From: Xenorhabdus khoisanae
Lineage (GTDB): Bacteria; Pseudomonadota; Gammaproteobacteria; Enterobacterales; Enterobacteriaceae
Assembly (NCBI RefSeq): GCF_001037465.1
Contig: NZ_LFCV01000067.1
Span: 1-64,000 of the forward strand
Direction: 5' to 3'
Length of the DNA stretch: 64,000 nucleotides
The position numbers were made by a program, and so were the translations under genes. Position 1 is the first letter of the stretch, and every line of letters begins with the position of its first letter. This document shows positions 2,411 to 64,000 of the stretch, piece by piece. Under the pieces are notes generated by a model, which saw only the letters and a list, made by a program, of their open reading frames with translations, had not been told where the DNA came from and made no database searches.

Positions 2411-4027
2411 ATGCATCGTTTTTCGTTACTCTCCTCTGTATTACTGATGACCGGGCTTTCTTTTTCTGTTTCTGCCGCCCATGTTCCTGCCGGCACTCAA
2501 CTTGACCCTCGGCAGGAATTGGTTCGTCAATTGAAAGATGAACCTGCATCGCTAGACCCGATAAAATCTTTCGGTTTAACTGAGGCACAAATATTGCGTG
2601 ATCTGTTTGAAGGTCTGGTAAATCAAGATGCTCATGGTCAAACCATTCCGGGCGTTGCTACTGACTGGAAAACAACAGATAACAAAACATGGATATTTAC
2701 ACTTCGTCATGATGCCCGTTGGTCTAATGGTGACAGTGTCACAGCCTCTGATTTTGTTTATAGTTGGCAGAGATTGGTCAATCCTGCCAATGCCTCTTCT
2801 TTTTCCTGGTTTGCTGCCTTATCAGGTATTCAGAATGCACAAGAAATCATTGATGGAAAATTACCGCCGGAAAAATTGGGTGTAGAAGCCATCGATCCTT
2901 ACACGTTAAAGGTGAGTCTGGATCGGCCTGTGCCTTATTTTCCCTGCATGACAACCAACTTTAGCCTCTATCCGGTCAATAAGCAGAGCGTCGAAAAATA
3001 TGGCAATGATTGGACCCGGGTAGGGAACTTGGTTGGTAATGGTGCATTTATGTTAACGGGGCGGGTTGTGAATGAAAAAATTGTCCTGAAGCCAAACCCC
3101 TATTATTGGGATAACAAAAATACGGTACTGACAAAAGTTACCTTTATGCCCATCAATCAGGAATCTCATGCAACCAAACGCTATCTGGCGGGAGATCTGG
3201 ATATTACGGAATCTTTCCCTAAGAACATGTACCAGAAATTGTTGCGGGAACTTCCGGGACAAGTTTTCACGCCGGATCAGTTGGGAACATACTACTATGC
3301 TTTTAACACAAAACGGGCACCAACAAATGATGTTCGGGTGAGACAAGCACTTTCCATGGCAATAGACAGGAACTTGATTGCGAAAAAAGTAGTGGGTACG
3401 GGAGAAAAATCGGCATGGCGTTTTACCCCTGATGTGACGGCAGGCTTCCGGCCAGAGAAAAGCCGGCAGGAAACATTCACTCAACAGGAACTCGATAATC
3501 AGGCGAAGGCATTGTTGAAAGCAGCCGGATATGGCCCTGAAAATCCATTAAAAATATCATTACTTTATAACAATCTGGAAAACAACCAGCGGATAGCGAT
3601 CGCCATTAGCTCAGAATGGAAGAAAAAATTGGGCGTGGAGGTGAAATTAGTTAATCAGGAGTGGAAAACCTACGTTGATAACCGTAACACGGGTAATTTC
3701 GATGTGGTCAGGGCATCCTGGACCGGGGATTATAACGAACCATCAAGTTTCCTGTCTCTTTTGACATCCGCTCACAGTGGCAATATCGCGAAATTTCACA
3801 ATGCTGATTATGATGCGTTGCTTAAAGGCGCAAGTTATGAAACTGACGATGTAATCAGGAACCGCGATTACAATCAGGCAGAAAAAATGATCGCAGAACA
3901 AGCGCCCATTGTTCCGATTTATCAATATACCAATGGTCGGTTGATCAAAACGTGGTTAAAAGGATACCCGATCACCAATCCTGAAGATGTGGCCTATAGT
4001 CATAACATGTATATCATCAAGCACTAA
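2411..4027 (+). CDS. mppA: Periplasmic peptide-binding protein MppA (murein tripeptide type)
   Basis: A 538-residue solute-binding protein of the oligopeptide family (SBP_bac_5), close to the 537 residues of E. coli MppA. A cleavable signal peptide (residues 1-22, ending SVSAA, no lipobox) sends it to the periplasm. MppA binds the recycled murein tripeptide L-Ala-gamma-D-Glu-meso-Dap and hands it to the Opp permease. Family signatures include EPASLDPIKS near residue 45, DFVYSWQRL near 115 and the NPYYWD segment near 225. MppA is preferred over OppA because the gene sits beside tpx, as in E. coli, and no oppBCDF genes follow. A TATAAT at 2363-2368 is a possible -10. The stop is 38 bp before zntB, so the two may be cotranscribed. 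Confidence 0.85.
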   Translation: MHRFSLLSSVLLMTGLSFSVSAAHVPAGTQLDPRQELVRQLKDEPASLDPIKSFGLTEAQILRDLFEGLVNQDAHGQTIPGVATDWKTTDNKTWIFTLRHDARWSNGDSVTASDFVYSWQRLVNPANASSFSWFAALSGIQNAQEIIDGKLPPEKLGVEAIDPYTLKVSLDRPVPYFPCMTTNFSLYPVNKQSVEKYGNDWTRVGNLVGNGAFMLTGRVVNEKIVLKPNPYYWDNKNTVLTKVTFMPINQESHATKRYLAGDLDITESFPKNMYQKLLRELPGQVFTPDQLGTYYYAFNTKRAPTNDVRVRQALSMAIDRNLIAKKVVGTGEKSAWRFTPDVTAGFRPEKSRQETFTQQELDNQAKALLKAAGYGPENPLKISLLYNNLENNQRIAIAISSEWKKKLGVEVKLVNQEWKTYVDNRNTGNFDVVRASWTGDYNEPSSFLSLLTSAHSGNIAKFHNADYDALLKGASYETDDVIRNRDYNQAEKMIAEQAPIVPIYQYTNGRLIKTWLKGYPITNPEDVAYSHNMYIIKH

Positions 4028-11206: not shown

Positions 11207-12880
11207 TTAACTGACCAAATCCTGTAGCGTTTGCCAGAACGGGCTTTGTAGCGCGAGCTGTCGCTGTTCCTCAAGCATATCTTCAAGTATTTCCGGGGTC
11301 GTCAATGGATTTGCCAGTACAACACGCAAAACGGTTGTTGGTTGTCGATTCCATTGCGCCGGGTTGATAGAGGTGCGGGAGACAAAGGTTTTTCCCGCAG
11401 TCCACTGCATAGCCTGAATGTTTTGGTTAAGTGCATTAAGCATATCATGCAGTTTTTGTTTCGCCGATTCCGGGCCTTCGCGTAATGCTTGTAACACCAT
11501 TGATGGCACGTATCGGTAGGTCAGAAGACAAAGTTGGGGTTCGCTGATTAACTCGAAATCTTCCTGCTGGCGGATGAGATCCGCAAATTGCCGTGCTTTC
11601 TCGATGCTTGCATCTATCAGGTGAGCGAATCCCCGTCTGCCGAGCAGATGGAAGTTACTGTGCAGCATAAGCGACATCGCGCTGCGTGAGCCTTCTAAAG
11701 TATGGCGTCCGAGATCTTTCGAGTCCTTGCGGACAATATAATTAGCATGCTGGGCAATGGCGTCGGTCAGGGTAGGCTGACGGAACAGCACCACACCGGC
11801 TCCCATTGGCACATACATTTGTTTATGCGCATCAATCGTCACAGTATCGGCACGTTCGATACCATCGAATAAATGCCGATAGCGTTCTGACAACAAACTC
11901 GCTCCACCCCAAGCGGCATCAACATGAAAATGACACTGTTCCTGTTCAGCAATATCCGCCAGAACATTCAGCGGATCGATAGAACCGGTTTCTGTGGAAC
12001 CGGCTATCCCGACAATAGCCATGGGCTTGATATTGCGTTGACGCAAATTCTGCAATTGCGTGAGCAGGGCATCAATACAGATCCGGCCATTTCTGTCGGT
12101 AGCGACTTTTACCAGCGCATCTTGTCCCAAACCGAGCACATCCACGGTTTTTTTCAGTGAATAGTGTCCCAATTCCGAAACCAGAATCGCGAGTCCGTTA
12201 TAACCATAATGAATGAGTCCTCTGGCTAAACCTTCACGGGCAAGGCCGGCAAAATCGCCATTGGCTGGCATAAGCTGGTTTCGGCATGCCCACATGGCAG
12301 TCAAATTAGCCAGCGTTCCCCCAGAACAAAAGGTTGCCAGCGCATGATTGCCGTTATGGAGCCACTGTTGATAGAAATCGTCGTCGCGGTTGTATACCAA
12401 TTTGTGCATCATACCCAGCACTTGACGCTCCAGCGCGGTTAAAACATGCGATGTTTCCAGTTTGACCAGATTCTGGTTGAGAGCTGTCAGGATTTTGCCA
12501 AGCGCAGGTAAGTGCTTAGGCAAAGCCGACGTCATGTGACCAACAAATGTTGGTGAGGATACGGGCACGACATGATTAAGCACGTCTTCGCTCAAATGCC
12601 GGACGTATGTCCCGCTATCAACCGGAAGTTCAGGAATAATCACCGAAGTAAACTGTTTTTCAAGCTCCGCCAATTCGTGTACTGGCTTGTTTAACTCGTG
12701 CTGACAATAAGTGACAGGGTCACCAGCAATACTGGTTTCCAGTTCGAGCAGTTCTTCCTCACCGGCATGGGGGATAAACTGGTCGAGCAGCGCTTGCCAT
12801 TCTTGTCCATCAGGACAGGAAGTGTGAAGAGCACTCTTATCCGCCTCGTCGGGATTCAGACCGTCAAGAAAATACAGCAT
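11207..12880 (-). CDS. PLP-dependent aspartate 1-decarboxylase (PanP-like), beta-alanine supply
   Basis: A PLP-dependent decarboxylase of the group II glutamate/aspartate family. The lysine that binds PLP is in TIDAHKQMYVPMGAG (about residue 353), and the cofactor-contacting aspartate is in HFHVDAAWGGASLL. The N-terminal extension and overall sequence resemble PanP-type aspartate 1-decarboxylases, which turn L-aspartate into beta-alanine. The frame is open to a GTG at 12901, but AAGAGGA lies just before the ATG at 12880, so I use that start (557 residues). It is 110 bp downstream of the third NRPS gene on the same strand. One A domain of that NRPS carries a beta-alanine code, so the enzyme most likely provides this precursor. 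Glutamate decarboxylation cannot be excluded from sequence alone. Confidence 0.85.
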   Translation of the reverse strand: MLYFLDGLNPDEADKSALHTSCPDGQEWQALLDQFIPHAGEEELLELETSIAGDPVTYCQHELNKPVHELAELEKQFTSVIIPELPVDSGTYVRHLSEDVLNHVVPVSSPTFVGHMTSALPKHLPALGKILTALNQNLVKLETSHVLTALERQVLGMMHKLVYNRDDDFYQQWLHNGNHALATFCSGGTLANLTAMWACRNQLMPANGDFAGLAREGLARGLIHYGYNGLAILVSELGHYSLKKTVDVLGLGQDALVKVATDRNGRICIDALLTQLQNLRQRNIKPMAIVGIAGSTETGSIDPLNVLADIAEQEQCHFHVDAAWGGASLLSERYRHLFDGIERADTVTIDAHKQMYVPMGAGVVLFRQPTLTDAIAQHANYIVRKDSKDLGRHTLEGSRSAMSLMLHSNFHLLGRRGFAHLIDASIEKARQFADLIRQQEDFELISEPQLCLLTYRYVPSMVLQALREGPESAKQKLHDMLNALNQNIQAMQWTAGKTFVSRTSINPAQWNRQPTTVLRVVLANPLTTPEILEDMLEEQRQLALQSPFWQTLQDLVS

Positions 12881-12959
12881 AGTTTTCCTCTTTAGCGTCA
12901 CTAATAATATCGTTCATGTTTTGCTCATACATACGGTTCAGCAACTTCGCCCCGGTTTT

Positions 12960-57995: not shown

Positions 57996-58889
57996 TTAAA
58001 TGTTTGTAACATCAATAAACATTTCTTCATTAATGTTCGTTGATGATACGACCGCTTCGTTAAACGCATACTCTTCTCTTTCTCCCTCGCGGGATAATGG
58101 TAAGTTAACAAAGTCGAAAAGCGTTCTATCGGCCAATTGGCTTGGGCTAACATTTTGCAGAGATTTGAAAATACTTTCTACTCTGCCCGGTGTTTTCTTG
58201 TCCCAATCCACCAACATTGCTTTGATTGTTTTGCGTTGTAGGTTTTCTTGAGAACCACATAAATTGCAAGGAATGATTGGGAATGCTTTGTGTTCCGCAT
58301 ACTTAATCAGATCTTTCTCCCGGCAATATGCCAGTGGCCTTATGACTACATTACGGCCATCATCAGAACGTAGCTTTGGCGGCATCGCTTTCATTCGTGA
58401 GCCGTGGAACATGTTAAGAAACAGAGTCTCAACAATGTCATCTAAATGATGTCCAAGTGCAATTTTCGTCGCCCCAATTTTTTCTGCAAAAGAATAAAGT
58501 GTGCCCCGGCGCAATCTTGAACACAATCCACATGTGGTTTTGCCTTCCGGTACTTTTTCTTTCACCACTGAATAGGTGTCTTTGTCAACGATATAGTAGG
58601 GAATATCCAGACTTTCAAAATATTGAGGTAAGATATACTCAGGAAAACCAGGCTGTTTCTGATCAAGGTTCACTGCAACGACTTCAAATTTTATTGGCGC
58701 GGCTTTTTGCAGATTCAATAGAATATCTAACATCGCAAATGAATCTTTGCCGCCACTGATACATGCCATTACAACATCATTAGCTTCAATCATATTGTAA
58801 TCAATAATAGCATTACCAACACTTCTCCTCAGGCGTTTCTGGAGCTTGTTGAATTCAAGTGTTTCTTTTCTCGTATCTTTCTGATTCAT
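57996..58889 (-). CDS. ttcA: tRNA 2-thiocytidine biosynthesis protein TtcA
   Basis: A 297-residue enzyme that makes 2-thiocytidine at position 32 of certain tRNAs, using ATP and an iron-sulfur cluster. The PP-loop motif SGGKDS is at 45-50. The cluster-binding cysteines are Cys120 and Cys123 ([12 protein letters not shown]) plus the later [10 protein letters not shown] pair region. [15 protein letters not shown] is also characteristic. It is slightly shorter than E. coli TtcA (311). The gene is intact. In E. coli, ttcA is the integration site of the Rac prophage and lies near zntB, so this neighbourhood is a known place for foreign DNA. Here both flanks of ttcA carry NRPS genes. Confidence 0.96.
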
Positions 58890-59248: not shown

Positions 59249-62200
59249 TTAACTTATATTATCCTTAATTGATAATGTGTTGATTATTTCTGTGCTGATA
59301 ATGGGAACGGCTTCAATAATATTTTCATGATAACAATCATCAACCAATGTAATTACTAATGGGTTGACTGTAAATTGAGAAATATTATTATCCGGGATTT
59401 TCCTTGTCAATTGACTAAGCTCAAATCCAACACCTTCTTTATAGTATGGATTTGTTCTTCCTGCTTTAAATAAGGTGATATTTGTATGTGTTAATTTCCC
59501 GCTTAAATTACCATTCCCTATTTCAATCTCAAGCGGTATTGCTTCCAATACTGTATTGATATAAGCATCGCTCGCGCCCATTTCCTGCAATTTTCTGGTG
59601 GCTTTCTTATATTCACTTGGCATATTCAGTTTATTTTTCAGATCCTTTATCTCATCGTTATTGATAATAGTATCTAATAAGAATAAATGAATCTCTTTTG
59701 CACCTAGCTGTTCTAATTGAAATGCAATTTCCATAGCGAGTTGTCCTCCTAATGACCAACCTAAAATGCGAATAGGTTTATCAATAGCAGTTTCTGTCAG
59801 GATTAACTCCATGTAGATTTGGGTTAGCTTCTGTAGCGAATCTGTCTGATTATCCATGCAGTGATTATAATTATTGATGCCTATGCAGTTATACGCATCA
59901 GATAATGTATTTGCCAGAGCAGCATATACTTCACTACCGCTATTAGCCGGATGAACCATAAACAGTTTATTGGTTGCCGTTGATTCCGGTGTTAAGAAAT
60001 TAAGTAAATCCGGTTTAACACTGCCTGTTTCCAGCCATTGAGCTAACAAAGCAATACATTTGTAGCTAAACAGAATATTTAAAGGAATATCAACGTCTAT
60101 TTCATTGCGCATTGCGGCGGTCAGTTTAATCGCCGTTAAGGAATTACCACCAATGCGGAAGAAATTATCTTCGATGCCAATCTGCTCCAGTCCCAATATT
60201 TCCTGCCAAATAGCACACAGTCGGGTTTCCAGTGTATTGCGGGGAGCAACATAACTGTCCTGCGTCCCCCATATCGGCTCTGGCAGGGCGCGGCGGTTCA
60301 GCTTGCCATTCAGGGTCAGCGGCACGGACGTAATGCGGGTAAAGCTGGCGGGCAGCATATATTCCGGCAGGCGGGCGGAGAGGTGCTTAATCAGGGTTTC
60401 ATCGGACAGTACTTCCGCTGCCACCAGATAGGCGGCCAGCACTTTATTTCCCTTATACTCGTGGTCAATCACCACCGCTTGTTTTACCTGCGGATGGGCA
60501 GCGAGGGCGTTTTCGATTTCGCCCAGCTCAATGCGGTAACCGCGGATTTTGACCTGAAAATCATTACGTCCGAGGTAGTCCAGATTGCCGTCCGGTCGCC
60601 AGCACACCCGGTCGCCGGTTTTGTACAGGCGGGTATAGCCTTTGGCCTTATCTTCGGCCGTCGCGAATGGGTTTGCCACAAAACGCTCGGCAGTCAGTTC
60701 AGGCCGGTTCCAGTATCCCCGCGCCAGTCCTGCACCGCCGATGTACAGTTCTCCCGGTGCGCCGACAGGAGCGGGATTGCCGTCATCATCAAGAACATAC
60801 AGACGGGTATTGTCGATGCCTTTGCCGATGGTTCTCTCCCCGTCCTGTAATAAGTGCTGGGTCGCACAGACAGTAATTTCAGTGGGACCATATTGGTTAA
60901 ACAGGGTGATCCCTGAGCGTAAATTCAGGGCATTCAGGGCCTCCCCGCCCGTATGGATAACCTGTAAGGTGGACTGGAATAATTCAGCGGAAAAATGGTT
61001 CATCAAGGCTGTTGGAATAAACGCCTTGGTAATGTTATGGAAATTGATGAATGCCAACAACTGTTCACTGTCTTTGGTCACCGAAGTGGGGGCAATAAAC
61101 AGGGAGGCTCCCGTTATCAGGACAGGGAAAATCTCAAAGACAGAGGCATCAAAGACGTAATTGGAGAAAAACAGCGCCTTGGTTTGCGGGCACAGTAAAT
61201 GTGTTCTGGCAATAAACCGGGCTAAGTTATTGACGCTGGTATGCTCAATCATCACGCCTTTGGGCTGACCGGTGGTGCCGGAGGTGTAAATGATATAGGC
61301 CAAATCGGTTGGTTTGTTGACTGGCGCCGGATTTTCTACGGGCTGGCCTGCGGTGATTGTCTGGTCATCCGCCGCTATCAGTGTTGGCTGTTCAACCCAT
61401 GTTTGGGTGTATTCCTTCAATGTCGCCAGATGCCGTTGCTGGGTAATGACATACGGGGTCCGGATATCTTGCAGAATAAAACTGACGCGTTCTGCGGGAT
61501 ATTCCGGAGAAATGGGCACATAAGCACCGCCGGCTTTCAGCACTGCCAACATACTGATCACCATTTCCGGACTGCGGTCAAGATAAAGGGCGATTGGCGT
61601 GTCGGCTTGCAGCGGTGCATTACGTTGCTGTTGATCGCATAGCTGTTGATCGCATTGTTGTTGATCGTATTGCTGCTGATAATTCCCGCGGATAGCGTGT
61701 GCCAACTGATTTGCCCGTTCGTTGAGCTGGCGATAGGTTAGCGTTTCTCCCTCAAACACCAGTGCCACGTTATCCGGTGTGGTTTCCACCTGAGCTTCAA
61801 ACAATTGTTGCAGGGATTGGTCCTGCGGGTAGGAAACATTGGTCTGGTTCCAGATGTGCAGCAGGGTATGGCGCTCTCCTTCACTGAGGAACATCATGGA
61901 AGTATGCGGCTGGTGTGGGTCACAGGCCGCGGCGTGCAGAATACGTTCAAGCTGATCAAGCAAACGTTGAGCCTGTTCCCCGGTCAACCAATCTTCTCCA
62001 TAACTTAATTTCACTATCAGGCGGTTATCTTGCTCATAAGCCATCAGCGACAACGGATAATCCACTTTTTCGATAGCCTGACGGAACACCAGAGTGTTCT
62101 CAATCCCTTCCTCATTTTCGCTCACTACTGGGTCAGGGTAGTTTTCAAAGATCAACAGGCTATGGAATAACCGCTCCCCATCTGGCTGTAAGCCGGCGAG

Positions 62201-64000
62201 TGATACGGCACTGTGGCTGTTGAGTGCGGCGATATCCTTCTGTATGTCTTGTAAAACCGTAGCTATATTTCCTGCCGGAGTCCATTGCACTGCTAATGGC
62301 AGGGTATTGATATACAGGCCAACACTGGACTCGATTCCATCCACTGGAACATCACGCCCGGATACCGTCGTGCCGACAAGGGTCTGTTCATCCCCACTGT
62401 AATTGTGTAGCAATTTATGCCAGGCAAATTGCAGTACCACATTCAGAGTCACACCTTGTTCGCGACACATTTTTTTAAGCTGATGGTAAGCATTTCCTTG
62501 TACGGTAATCGCTTTTCCCGCTGGTTTTTCAATCGCTTTTATTTGCGTTAAATCAACGTGGTGACTTAACAGAGCCGAAAGATCGTTGGCTCTATGGAAT
62601 TGTATTTTGCGTTCATCCCAATAAGCCTCAGATTCTGCTCTATGATCCAAATGGTATTGTTGGGTTGCCAGATAAGCGTTGTCTAATGTTATCTGGGGGA
62701 CCCGTCCTTGTATCAGCTCGTTGTAATATTCATGCACCGCTTGTAATAAAATCGGGTTACTCCAGCCGTCGGTAATCGAGTGGTGTTGAGTGATGAGAAC
62801 CGTTACTAACTGTTCATTCTGTTTAATTAAGGTGAAGCGGATTAAACCGGGTTGACTTAAATCAAAAGACAGATTGCGGTCATGTTGTTGAATCGCTTCA
62901 ATCGCTTTGTTTCGGGCTTCTTCTGGTAATTGACTGATATCCTTGATGGTGAAATTTGCCGCACCAAGACTTGCGCCCTCAGTCACAATCTGCAAGGCTT
63001 CCTCTTCCCAGTTAAATGCGGTTCTGAGGATGGGGAAGCGCAGTGAAGCCAGCGTCCAGGCTTGCTGGTAAGCGGTAAGATCCAGTTGTGTGCGGTAATC
63101 TAACAGCAGTTGCACGCGATAGGCATCATCCTGTGGTTGAGCCAGATGATGATAAATAAATCCCTGCTGCAAGCTGGTAGCAGGATACAGCGCTTCAATG
63201 TGATACATCTTCTGAAGGCGACGCAGAAGCTTAATGGAAATTCCTTTAATGCCGTAATCATGGGGGGTTTTTATTCCCCCCGCTTGAGCCTGTTTTTGAC
63301 CTGCCATGATGACAGAATTGAGTGCCTGTTCAAATGCGGTGATGAATACCTGCGTCTGAGCCTGTGACAAGTGCGAGCTGACACTAAATTGCAATCTTCC
63401 CGCTTGAATCAGGCCATTAATATTCAACAACAAATGACTACGATTATCGTCTGCCGCTACGGTTCCACAATCGTCATTGGTCAGTGACCAGTTTTGCTCA
63501 TCCTCTCCGCTTAATTTGCCGAGGTAGTTAAAGCTGAGCGCTGGCAGTTCATCGGTCAGGTGACCTGCCTGACATAGCGCCCCATAACCAATACCTTTGT
63601 TTGGTATAGCACGGAGCATCTCTTTGGTATGAATAATGGTTTCCGCAATATCATCCTGCATTGCCAGACGAACAGGGTACACAGTTGTAAACCAGCCGAC
63701 GGTTTCGGAGACATCCAGTGTGTTGTCGATGGCTTCCCGTCCATGACCTTCAAGTATGATGTGGTTAACAGGGCGCGAAAAGACGGCCTGTAATGCCAAC
63801 GTCAGGGCACTGAGAAGCAGGTCATTGATTTCGGTGTGGTAACCGGTATTGGCTTCACGCAACAGAATGTCGGTTAATTCAACGGAAATACCCAACATAT
63901 GTTGACTGCTTTCATCTGAAACAGAGTGAATCTGGTTCTCTGCCATCACTTGTTGCCAGTAGGGAATTTCCTGTTGGTGGTGTTCTGCATAGTGATGGAC
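59249..64000 (-). CDS. 3' part of a second NRPS: E (partial)-C-A-T-TE
   Basis: The frame is open across the right edge, so the true start lies outside; an internal GTG at 63949 is not the start. Positions below count from that GTG. The first part is the C-terminal half of an epimerisation domain (ILEGHGRE, ETVGWFTTVYP, KGIGYGAL, FNYLGKL; about residues 1-235). A C domain follows (HHSITDG near 391; start LYPATSLQQGF fits a DCL type accepting the D residue). Then come an A domain (FDASVFE near 933), a carrier (FFRIGGNSL near 1264) and a terminal thioesterase (GWSLGG near 1399). The A code reads about D-A-F-F-H-G-Q-V-C-K, which I cannot assign. It is more diverged from the xab modules than they are from each other, so it belongs to a separate pathway. 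It is the last protein of its assembly line. Confidence 0.92.
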   Translation of the reverse strand, partial: VHHYAEHHQQEIPYWQQVMAENQIHSVSDESSQHMLGISVELTDILLREANTGYHTEINDLLLSALTLALQAVFSRPVNHIILEGHGREAIDNTLDVSETVGWFTTVYPVRLAMQDDIAETIIHTKEMLRAIPNKGIGYGALCQAGHLTDELPALSFNYLGKLSGEDEQNWSLTNDDCGTVAADDNRSHLLLNINGLIQAGRLQFSVSSHLSQAQTQVFITAFEQALNSVIMAGQKQAQAGGIKTPHDYGIKGISIKLLRRLQKMYHIEALYPATSLQQGFIYHHLAQPQDDAYRVQLLLDYRTQLDLTAYQQAWTLASLRFPILRTAFNWEEEALQIVTEGASLGAANFTIKDISQLPEEARNKAIEAIQQHDRNLSFDLSQPGLIRFTLIKQNEQLVTVLITQHHSITDGWSNPILLQAVHEYYNELIQGRVPQITLDNAYLATQQYHLDHRAESEAYWDERKIQFHRANDLSALLSHHVDLTQIKAIEKPAGKAITVQGNAYHQLKKMCREQGVTLNVVLQFAWHKLLHNYSGDEQTLVGTTVSGRDVPVDGIESSVGLYINTLPLAVQWTPAGNIATVLQDIQKDIAALNSHSAVSLAGLQPDGERLFHSLLIFENYPDPVVSENEEGIENTLVFRQAIEKVDYPLSLMAYEQDNRLIVKLSYGEDWLTGEQAQRLLDQLERILHAAACDPHQPHTSMMFLSEGERHTLLHIWNQTNVSYPQDQSLQQLFEAQVETTPDNVALVFEGETLTYRQLNERANQLAHAIRGNYQQQYDQQQCDQQLCDQQQRNAPLQADTPIALYLDRSPEMVISMLAVLKAGGAYVPISPEYPAERVSFILQDIRTPYVITQQRHLATLKEYTQTWVEQPTLIAADDQTITAGQPVENPAPVNKPTDLAYIIYTSGTTGQPKGVMIEHTSVNNLARFIARTHLLCPQTKALFFSNYVFDASVFEIFPVLITGASLFIAPTSVTKDSEQLLAFINFHNITKAFIPTALMNHFSAELFQSTLQVIHTGGEALNALNLRSGITLFNQYGPTEITVCATQHLLQDGERTIGKGIDNTRLYVLDDDGNPAPVGAPGELYIGGAGLARGYWNRPELTAERFVANPFATAEDKAKGYTRLYKTGDRVCWRPDGNLDYLGRNDFQVKIRGYRIELGEIENALAAHPQVKQAVVIDHEYKGNKVLAAYLVAAEVLSDETLIKHLSARLPEYMLPASFTRITSVPLTLNGKLNRRALPEPIWGTQDSYVAPRNTLETRLCAIWQEILGLEQIGIEDNFFRIGGNSLTAIKLTAAMRNEIDVDIPLNILFSYKCIALLAQWLETGSVKPDLLNFLTPESTATNKLFMVHPANSGSEVYAALANTLSDAYNCIGINNYNHCMDNQTDSLQKLTQIYMELILTETAIDKPIRILGWSLGGQLAMEIAFQLEQLGAKEIHLFLLDTIINNDEIKDLKNKLNMPSEYKKATRKLQEMGASDAYINTVLEAIPLEIEIGNGNLSGKLTHTNITLFKAGRTNPYYKEGVGFELSQLTRKIPDNNISQFTVNPLVITLVDDCYHENIIEAVPIISTEIINTLSIKDNIS
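61626..61680 (-). repeat. 15-bp tandem repeat x3.7 in the second NRPS
   Basis: Copies of TGCTGTTGATCGCAT run from 61626 to 61680. They encode a glutamine-rich repeat (QYDQQQCDQQLCDQQQ) in a loop near the start of the A domain. Confidence 0.9.

Follow-up and report, generated by a model that had tools for sequence, protein, structure and literature searches.

Gene and domain organization of the locus

The window analyzed here spans 64,000 nucleotides, bases 1-64000 of contig C67 (65,655 bp) in a draft genome of 265 contigs. At its right-hand end lies a nonribosomal peptide synthetase (NRPS) gene read on the reverse strand (Table 1). Its reading frame stays open to the end of C67, where it amounts to 2,134 aa with the domain order A (part)-T-E-C-A-T-TE, so that the window holds only the 3' part. 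On this part Pfam recognizes two Condensation-type stretches, AMP-binding, AMP-binding_C, PP-binding and Thioesterase, which seed searches resolve into E, C, A, T and TE domains; both methods agree with the order of DCL-type C, A, T and TE after E that the initial annotation had read from the DNA. The E motif HHLIIDVVSW is found on the contig about 120 bases past the window edge. We assign the C domain of module 5 to the DCL type because C domains that follow an E domain, in their own or the preceding gene, score it at 706-816 bits, compared with 37-79 bits for those that do not. The residue incorporated before it is predicted to be D-configured, as had been proposed. Among the best 25 of 106 NCBIfam families listed, only the general TIGR01733 exceeded its cut-off, and no equivalog did.

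Table 1. Features of the terminal NRPS gene and its surroundings (window coordinates).
Feature	Position	Strand	Basis or remark
Terminal NRPS ORF, 3' part	59249-64000	-	C-terminal part of E, then DCL-type C, A, T, TE
E (epimerization) domain, module 4, C-terminal 262 residues	63215..64000	-	Remainder on the contig, to 65,655
C domain, module 5, DCL type	61853..63205	-	Pfam and seed search; motif HHSITDG in the window
A domain, module 5, code DAFFHGQVCK (predicted leucine)	60272..61834	-	Pfam, seed search, GrsA alignment
A-core cassette, leucine clade, about 158 residues, after A3 to before A6	60767..61240 (edges approximate)	-	Identities, tree, sliding comparison
T (carrier) domain, module 5	60023..60244	-	Pfam and seed search; motif GGNSL
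TE (thioesterase/cyclase) domain	59255..60022	-	Pfam and seed search; motif GWSLGG
Neighbor of the terminal NRPS gene, presumed ttcA	57996..58889	-	Pfam ATP_bind_3 (PP-loop)
PLP decarboxylase, in the large operon	11207-12901		

The terminal A domain carries a Gln-rich insertion of 15 residues that derives from a tandem repeat at 61625-61680 and is absent from all 10 related modules aligned. Tandem arrays are found mostly within NRPS genes (10 of 13, with periods of 12, 15 or 18 bp); the three outside have periods of 8, 13 and 16.

The neighboring gene is one we take to be ttcA, encoding TtcA. In X. anantnagensis, ttcA is followed at a distance of about 1.4 kb by a gene for an SBP_bac_5 solute-binding protein. 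In the window, a 47-kb xenoamicin-type cluster stands between ttcA and the SBP_bac_5 gene (2411-4027; whole region 2411-58889), as if it had been inserted there. The large operon (10601-57472, reverse strand) encodes 13 A domains whose codes fit xenoamicin, including two of Pro type, one of beta-Ala type (VDTVISFGDK) and others of Val, Ile, Thr and Ala types. Here and below, the assignment of codes to Thr, Val, Ala, Pro, beta-Ala and Ile/Leu is one that we assume. Xenoamicin was set aside as the pathway of the terminal NRPS gene on the basis of its codes. The codes of the terminal pathway predict another peptide than that of the large operon, a difference that the initial annotation had suggested as a possibility.

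The code DAFFHGQVCK and its probable reading as leucine

Extraction based on GrsA gives the module 5 A domain the code D-A-F-F-H-G-Q-V-C-K, identical to that of the initial annotation, which had regarded it as unassigned. When 30 genomes of the genus were searched with the A-core, 11 of them yielded a total of 25 cores of at least 71% identity, and the next matches reached at most 49%. The code is DAFFHGQVCK in 23 of these cores, DAAFHGQVCK in one and DATFDGQVCK in another, and together they form one clade that includes the window core (SH-aLRT 99 in a quick A-core tree of 114 distinct rows, short rows and duplicates left out). The stretches in which codes were read come from 21 of the 30 genomes, counting the one studied here, and include all 25 cores. 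We take genome G005 to be X. bovienii SS-2004, G020 to be X. nematophila and G021 to be X. poinarii.

X. indica is reported to make the taxlllaids, T-A-X-L-L-L-A with X being L, F or Y, by means of TxlA with four modules and TxlB with three (PMC6305712). On the X. indica contig, module 3 carries DATFDGQVCK and modules 4-6 carry DAFFHGQVCK, with modules 1, 2 and 7 partly missing; complete seven-module synthetases of taxlllaid architecture are present in X. lircayensis and G005. Because modules 4-6 correspond to the fixed L-L-L of the peptide, DAFFHGQVCK is, by its place in this synthetase, a predicted leucine code, and "unassigned" no longer describes it. Module 5 of the window fits these leucine A domains both in code and in clade membership, and its A-core is 77% identical to the leucine cores of X. 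indica and G005. A further occurrence lies on contig C82 (L023), which holds a second pathway of the same genome with the series Thr, DAFFHGQVCK followed by E, DAWFLGVTFK, Val followed by E, and DAWFLGVTF before the contig ends.

The histidine at the fifth pocket position (position 299) had been singled out as unusual, and this holds: among 144 A domains that a motif search located in non-Xenorhabdus loci (L044-L104), only three carry it, all with DAFFHGQVCK or a code one letter off. Judged by these codes, H299 is unusual but restricted to the leucine clade and its close kin. Its rarity outside the clade leaves some room for module 5 to select another residue (His, Trp, Phe or a non-proteinogenic one) or to be broadly promiscuous, as does the sister core DATFDGQVCK of X. 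indica, which groups with DAAFHGQVCK in the tree and serves position X. By analogy, A domains of the leucine clade can be promiscuous, since position 3 of the taxlllaids is reported to take L, F or Y (PMC6305712), though with other codes than that of module 5. We nevertheless regard this alternative as unlikely, because the module 5 code is that of the three fixed leucine positions of X. indica, unlike that of position X, and its core is closely similar to the leucine cores there and in G005.

A literature search by code fragments found no paper that prints DAFFHGQVCK or DGFIIGGVCK (the latter from the upstream modules described below), and DAFF, DGFI and FHGQ are absent from the main text of a paper on such signatures (PMC12283262). 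The related DAYFHGQVCK of Photobacterium galatheae was dropped as substrate evidence because the solonamide cluster of this species is, in the sources at hand, a bioinformatic prediction only (PMC7793655, PMC4359443) and the matching contig measures 3.3 kb.

The reconstructed pathway and its probable affiliation with PrtA/PrtB

As had been expected, the pathway continues past the window, first to the open end of C67 and then on contig C157. The ends of the two contigs overlap by 133 bp at 99% identity, with one mismatch, inside a repeated A domain. C157 is the only contig with an end that matches the C67 end at this level (the end of C82 reaches 69%), and the sole other place of comparable identity is module 2 within C157, whose A domain is nearly a copy of the split one of module 4 (98.3% over 983 bp). 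The DNA of these two A domains agrees at 98-99% over about 1.6 kb, which suggests a recent duplication or gene conversion, and this repeat accounts for the assembly break. C157 contains one gene of 4,119 aa and the start of the next, and the two pieces of this second gene align consecutively to a single gene of X. yunnanensis. An assembly chimera, in which C67 and C157 are not neighbors, might be suspected from the repeat at the break and the mismatch in the overlap, but is very improbable given this consecutive alignment and the absence of any other contig end matching at 99%.

On the strength of the overlap and the alignment we reconstruct a two-gene pathway of five modules, C-A-T-E-C-A-T-C-A-T-E (gene 1) and C-A-T-E-C-A-T-TE (gene 2), modules 1, 3 and 4 each being followed by an E domain. 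The codes are, in order, DAWQLGLNDK (Lys), DGFIIGGVCK, DAWWLGGTFK (Val), DGFIIGGVCK and DAFFHGQVCK (Leu), the fourth having been pieced together by eye with D-G-F-I from C157 and the remainder from C67. Beyond modules 2 and 4, DGFIIGGVCK was not seen in the stretches read, which represent 21 of the 30 genomes of the genus. Module 2 retains a core of the aromatic clade (nearest match 80%) in which the pocket has changed, and so does module 4 as far as it was read. In module 3 the core has been replaced by one of Val type, 30-34% identical to protegomycin-type cores.

Seven relatives carry a two-part synthetase of five or six modules with the first code DAWQLGLNDK. In all seven such loci fetched (BG5 counted once), as in the window, ttcA lies directly beside the last gene; an eighth locus that begins with Lys, G019a, consists of one gene with three modules and shows no ttcA within the 2.7 kb that follow it in the fetched stretch. 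One of the seven, G008, has binding sites for the gene-specific portions of the two primers published for X. doucetiae prtA; these sites lie 598 bp apart, the spacing given in the paper (PMC8163882, section 22). By this primer match, G008 is the protegomycin producer X. doucetiae. Protegomycin is reported as K-Y-Y-Y-Y-W, with an NMR structure comprising a short acyl starter, a Lys cyclized by the TE, and then Tyr and Trp (PMC8163882, section 11). The code series of G008, DAWQLGLNDK, DASTVAAVCK four times and DGFAVASVCK (Lys, four times Tyr, and a sixth that fits Trp), agrees with this sequence. A version of the protegomycin type with five A domains is also reported from X. poinarii (PMC8163882). 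The first NRPS gene of G008 (L107/L108) appears as two overlapping frames of 2,081 and 2,039 aa and is, to judge from these frames, split in two or frame-shifted. In G021 (L105), one TGA stop was counted within the match to the window gene.

The first C domain of gene 1 on C157 is 74% identical to that of the G008 PrtA over 448 aa, the code of its first A domain is identical, and an E domain follows; gene 1 is, by these features, a prtA orthologue with a Lys code. From its locus, gene order and Lys module, the window gene is in turn a putative prtB orthologue. Our assignment to the protegomycin type leans on locus, Lys module and TE identity because the E and C domains are almost equally similar to those of other Xenorhabdus synthetases (64-79% for E and 73-78% for C domains following E), so that these domains separate the families poorly. 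PrtA/PrtB of X. doucetiae (PMC8163882) shares with the pathway the ttcA locus, the N-terminal C domain (the C-starter of PrtA) and the Lys code with its E domain, and its terminal TE is 74% identical, but it has six modules with Tyr and Trp codes, whereas there are five here and these aromatic codes are absent from modules 2-5. TxlA/TxlB of X. indica shares the identical code in its leucine modules, but the taxlllaids are lipodepsipeptides of seven residues beginning with Thr, and their seven-module T-A-X-L-L-L-A architecture is not matched by five modules with Lys first; the window TE is 63% identical to that of the taxlllaid-type homologue in G005. The initial annotation had held that a close match to a characterized synthetase of known product would speak against its reading, and such a match exists in part: locus and gene layout are those of PrtA/PrtB and the A-core is that of the taxlllaid leucine modules, but the pathway as a whole has no such counterpart, its codes 2-5 differing from those of protegomycin.

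The window TE is 70-77% identical to five protegomycin-type TEs, compared with 60-67% for six others. In tests of the TE tree, a clade with the seven protegomycin-type TEs was weakly rejected (p 0.025) but not once G019a was added (p 0.073), and clades with the taxlllaid-type TEs (p 0.08) or with X. stockiae and X. innexi (p 0.077) were likewise not rejected; one with X. anantnagensis, X. yunnanensis and G028 gave p 0.19. Pairing with X. szentirmaii was rejected both alone (p 5e-44) and together with X. stockiae and X. innexi (p 4e-34, with an additional X. stockiae TE that belongs to a different cluster left out). The tree excludes only the X. szentirmaii pairing and does not decide between a place with the protegomycin types, one with the taxlllaid types and one with X. 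stockiae/X. innexi.

That the ORF ends a pathway unrelated to protegomycin, such as the six-module type of X. szentirmaii and X. stockiae, is scarcely credible: the terminal modules of that type do have the same code before the TE, with A-cores 76-80% and C domains 75-76% identical and an admissible TE clade with X. stockiae and X. innexi, but its first residue is Thr rather than Lys, its TEs are 61-62% identical to that of the window against 70-77% for the protegomycin types, the X. szentirmaii TE is rejected as a partner, the ttcA synteny speaks against it, and the gene upstream is the prtA orthologue with its Lys code. Lipocitide synthetases (four modules, unusual end) and GameXPeptide synthetases (Val/Leu/Phe) were set apart by the descriptions in the respective papers. 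Xenobactin was dropped as a candidate product of the X. stockiae cluster, with no structure found in the parts of the literature consulted.

A probable leucine A-core cassette in a protegomycin-type backbone

The module in the window is a mosaic. Its E domain shares 77-81% identity with five protegomycin-type proteins, its C domain 76-81% and its TE 70-77%. Within the A domain, identity to the same proteins is 66-73% in the first part, 45-46% in the A-core and 76-87% after it, and the A-core is 71-80% identical to six proteins with the leucine code. Each of these values is the best local match at any position in the protein concerned, and some fall in another module (E, C and the first part of A for X. 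doucetiae, the first part of A for G028, and the part after the core for X. yunnanensis). A sliding comparison over 20 residues places the switch after A3 (residue ~920) and the return before A6 (~1078), which corresponds to about 60767-61240 of the window; the right edge is less sharp. The motif numbers used for these edges follow the A-motif scheme as we presume it to run.

Because the core departs so strongly from the protegomycin types that its flanks resemble, and resembles the leucine cores instead, it has apparently entered a protegomycin-type backbone by a natural exchange of an A-core cassette. Such exchange is already known as a process: in the wollamide and desotamide synthetases the pocket-bearing A-core is reported to have been exchanged with the neighboring contacts kept (PMC9205934), as here. 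The wollamide/desotamide exchange is described as starting at A2 (PMC9205934), whereas the cassette in the window runs from just behind A3 to a point before A6.

Architecture, locus, codes and mosaic can be read directly from the DNA, and from them we consider it very likely that this ORF is the 3' portion of a prtB orthologue, that it belongs with its partner gene to a protegomycin-type lipopeptide synthetase of five modules, and that module 5 acquired its leucine specificity when its A-core was exchanged with that of a taxlllaid-clade leucine A domain. If the genes are expressed, the N-terminal C domain (a C-starter in PrtA) would acylate residue 1, predicted to be lysine, and the three E domains would convert residues 1, 3 and 4 to the D form. 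The DCL domain of module 5 would then accept the D-configured tetrapeptide and add L-leucine, and the TE would release the chain by cyclizing it onto the side chain of lysine, the mode of release reported for protegomycin. The predicted product is an acyl-D-Lys-X-D-Val-D-X-Leu lactam, where X stands for the substrate of DGFIIGGVCK.

The pathway would thus add a protegomycin-type lipopeptide predicted from sequence, and the assignment of DAFFHGQVCK to leucine fills a gap that prediction tools may leave. With about even confidence, we propose that the locus encodes a naturally reprogrammed protegomycin synthetase, whose product keeps the Lys ring while four of its five residues are changed, and that modules 2 and 4 load a residue new to the code DGFIIGGVCK. 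The leucine A-core of about 158 residues would, on the same proposal, be a portable cassette present in at least four synthetase types of the genus (taxlllaid, six-module terminal, the Thr-Leu pathway on C82, and protegomycin). A natural specificity cassette with fairly sharp edges could guide NRPS engineering.
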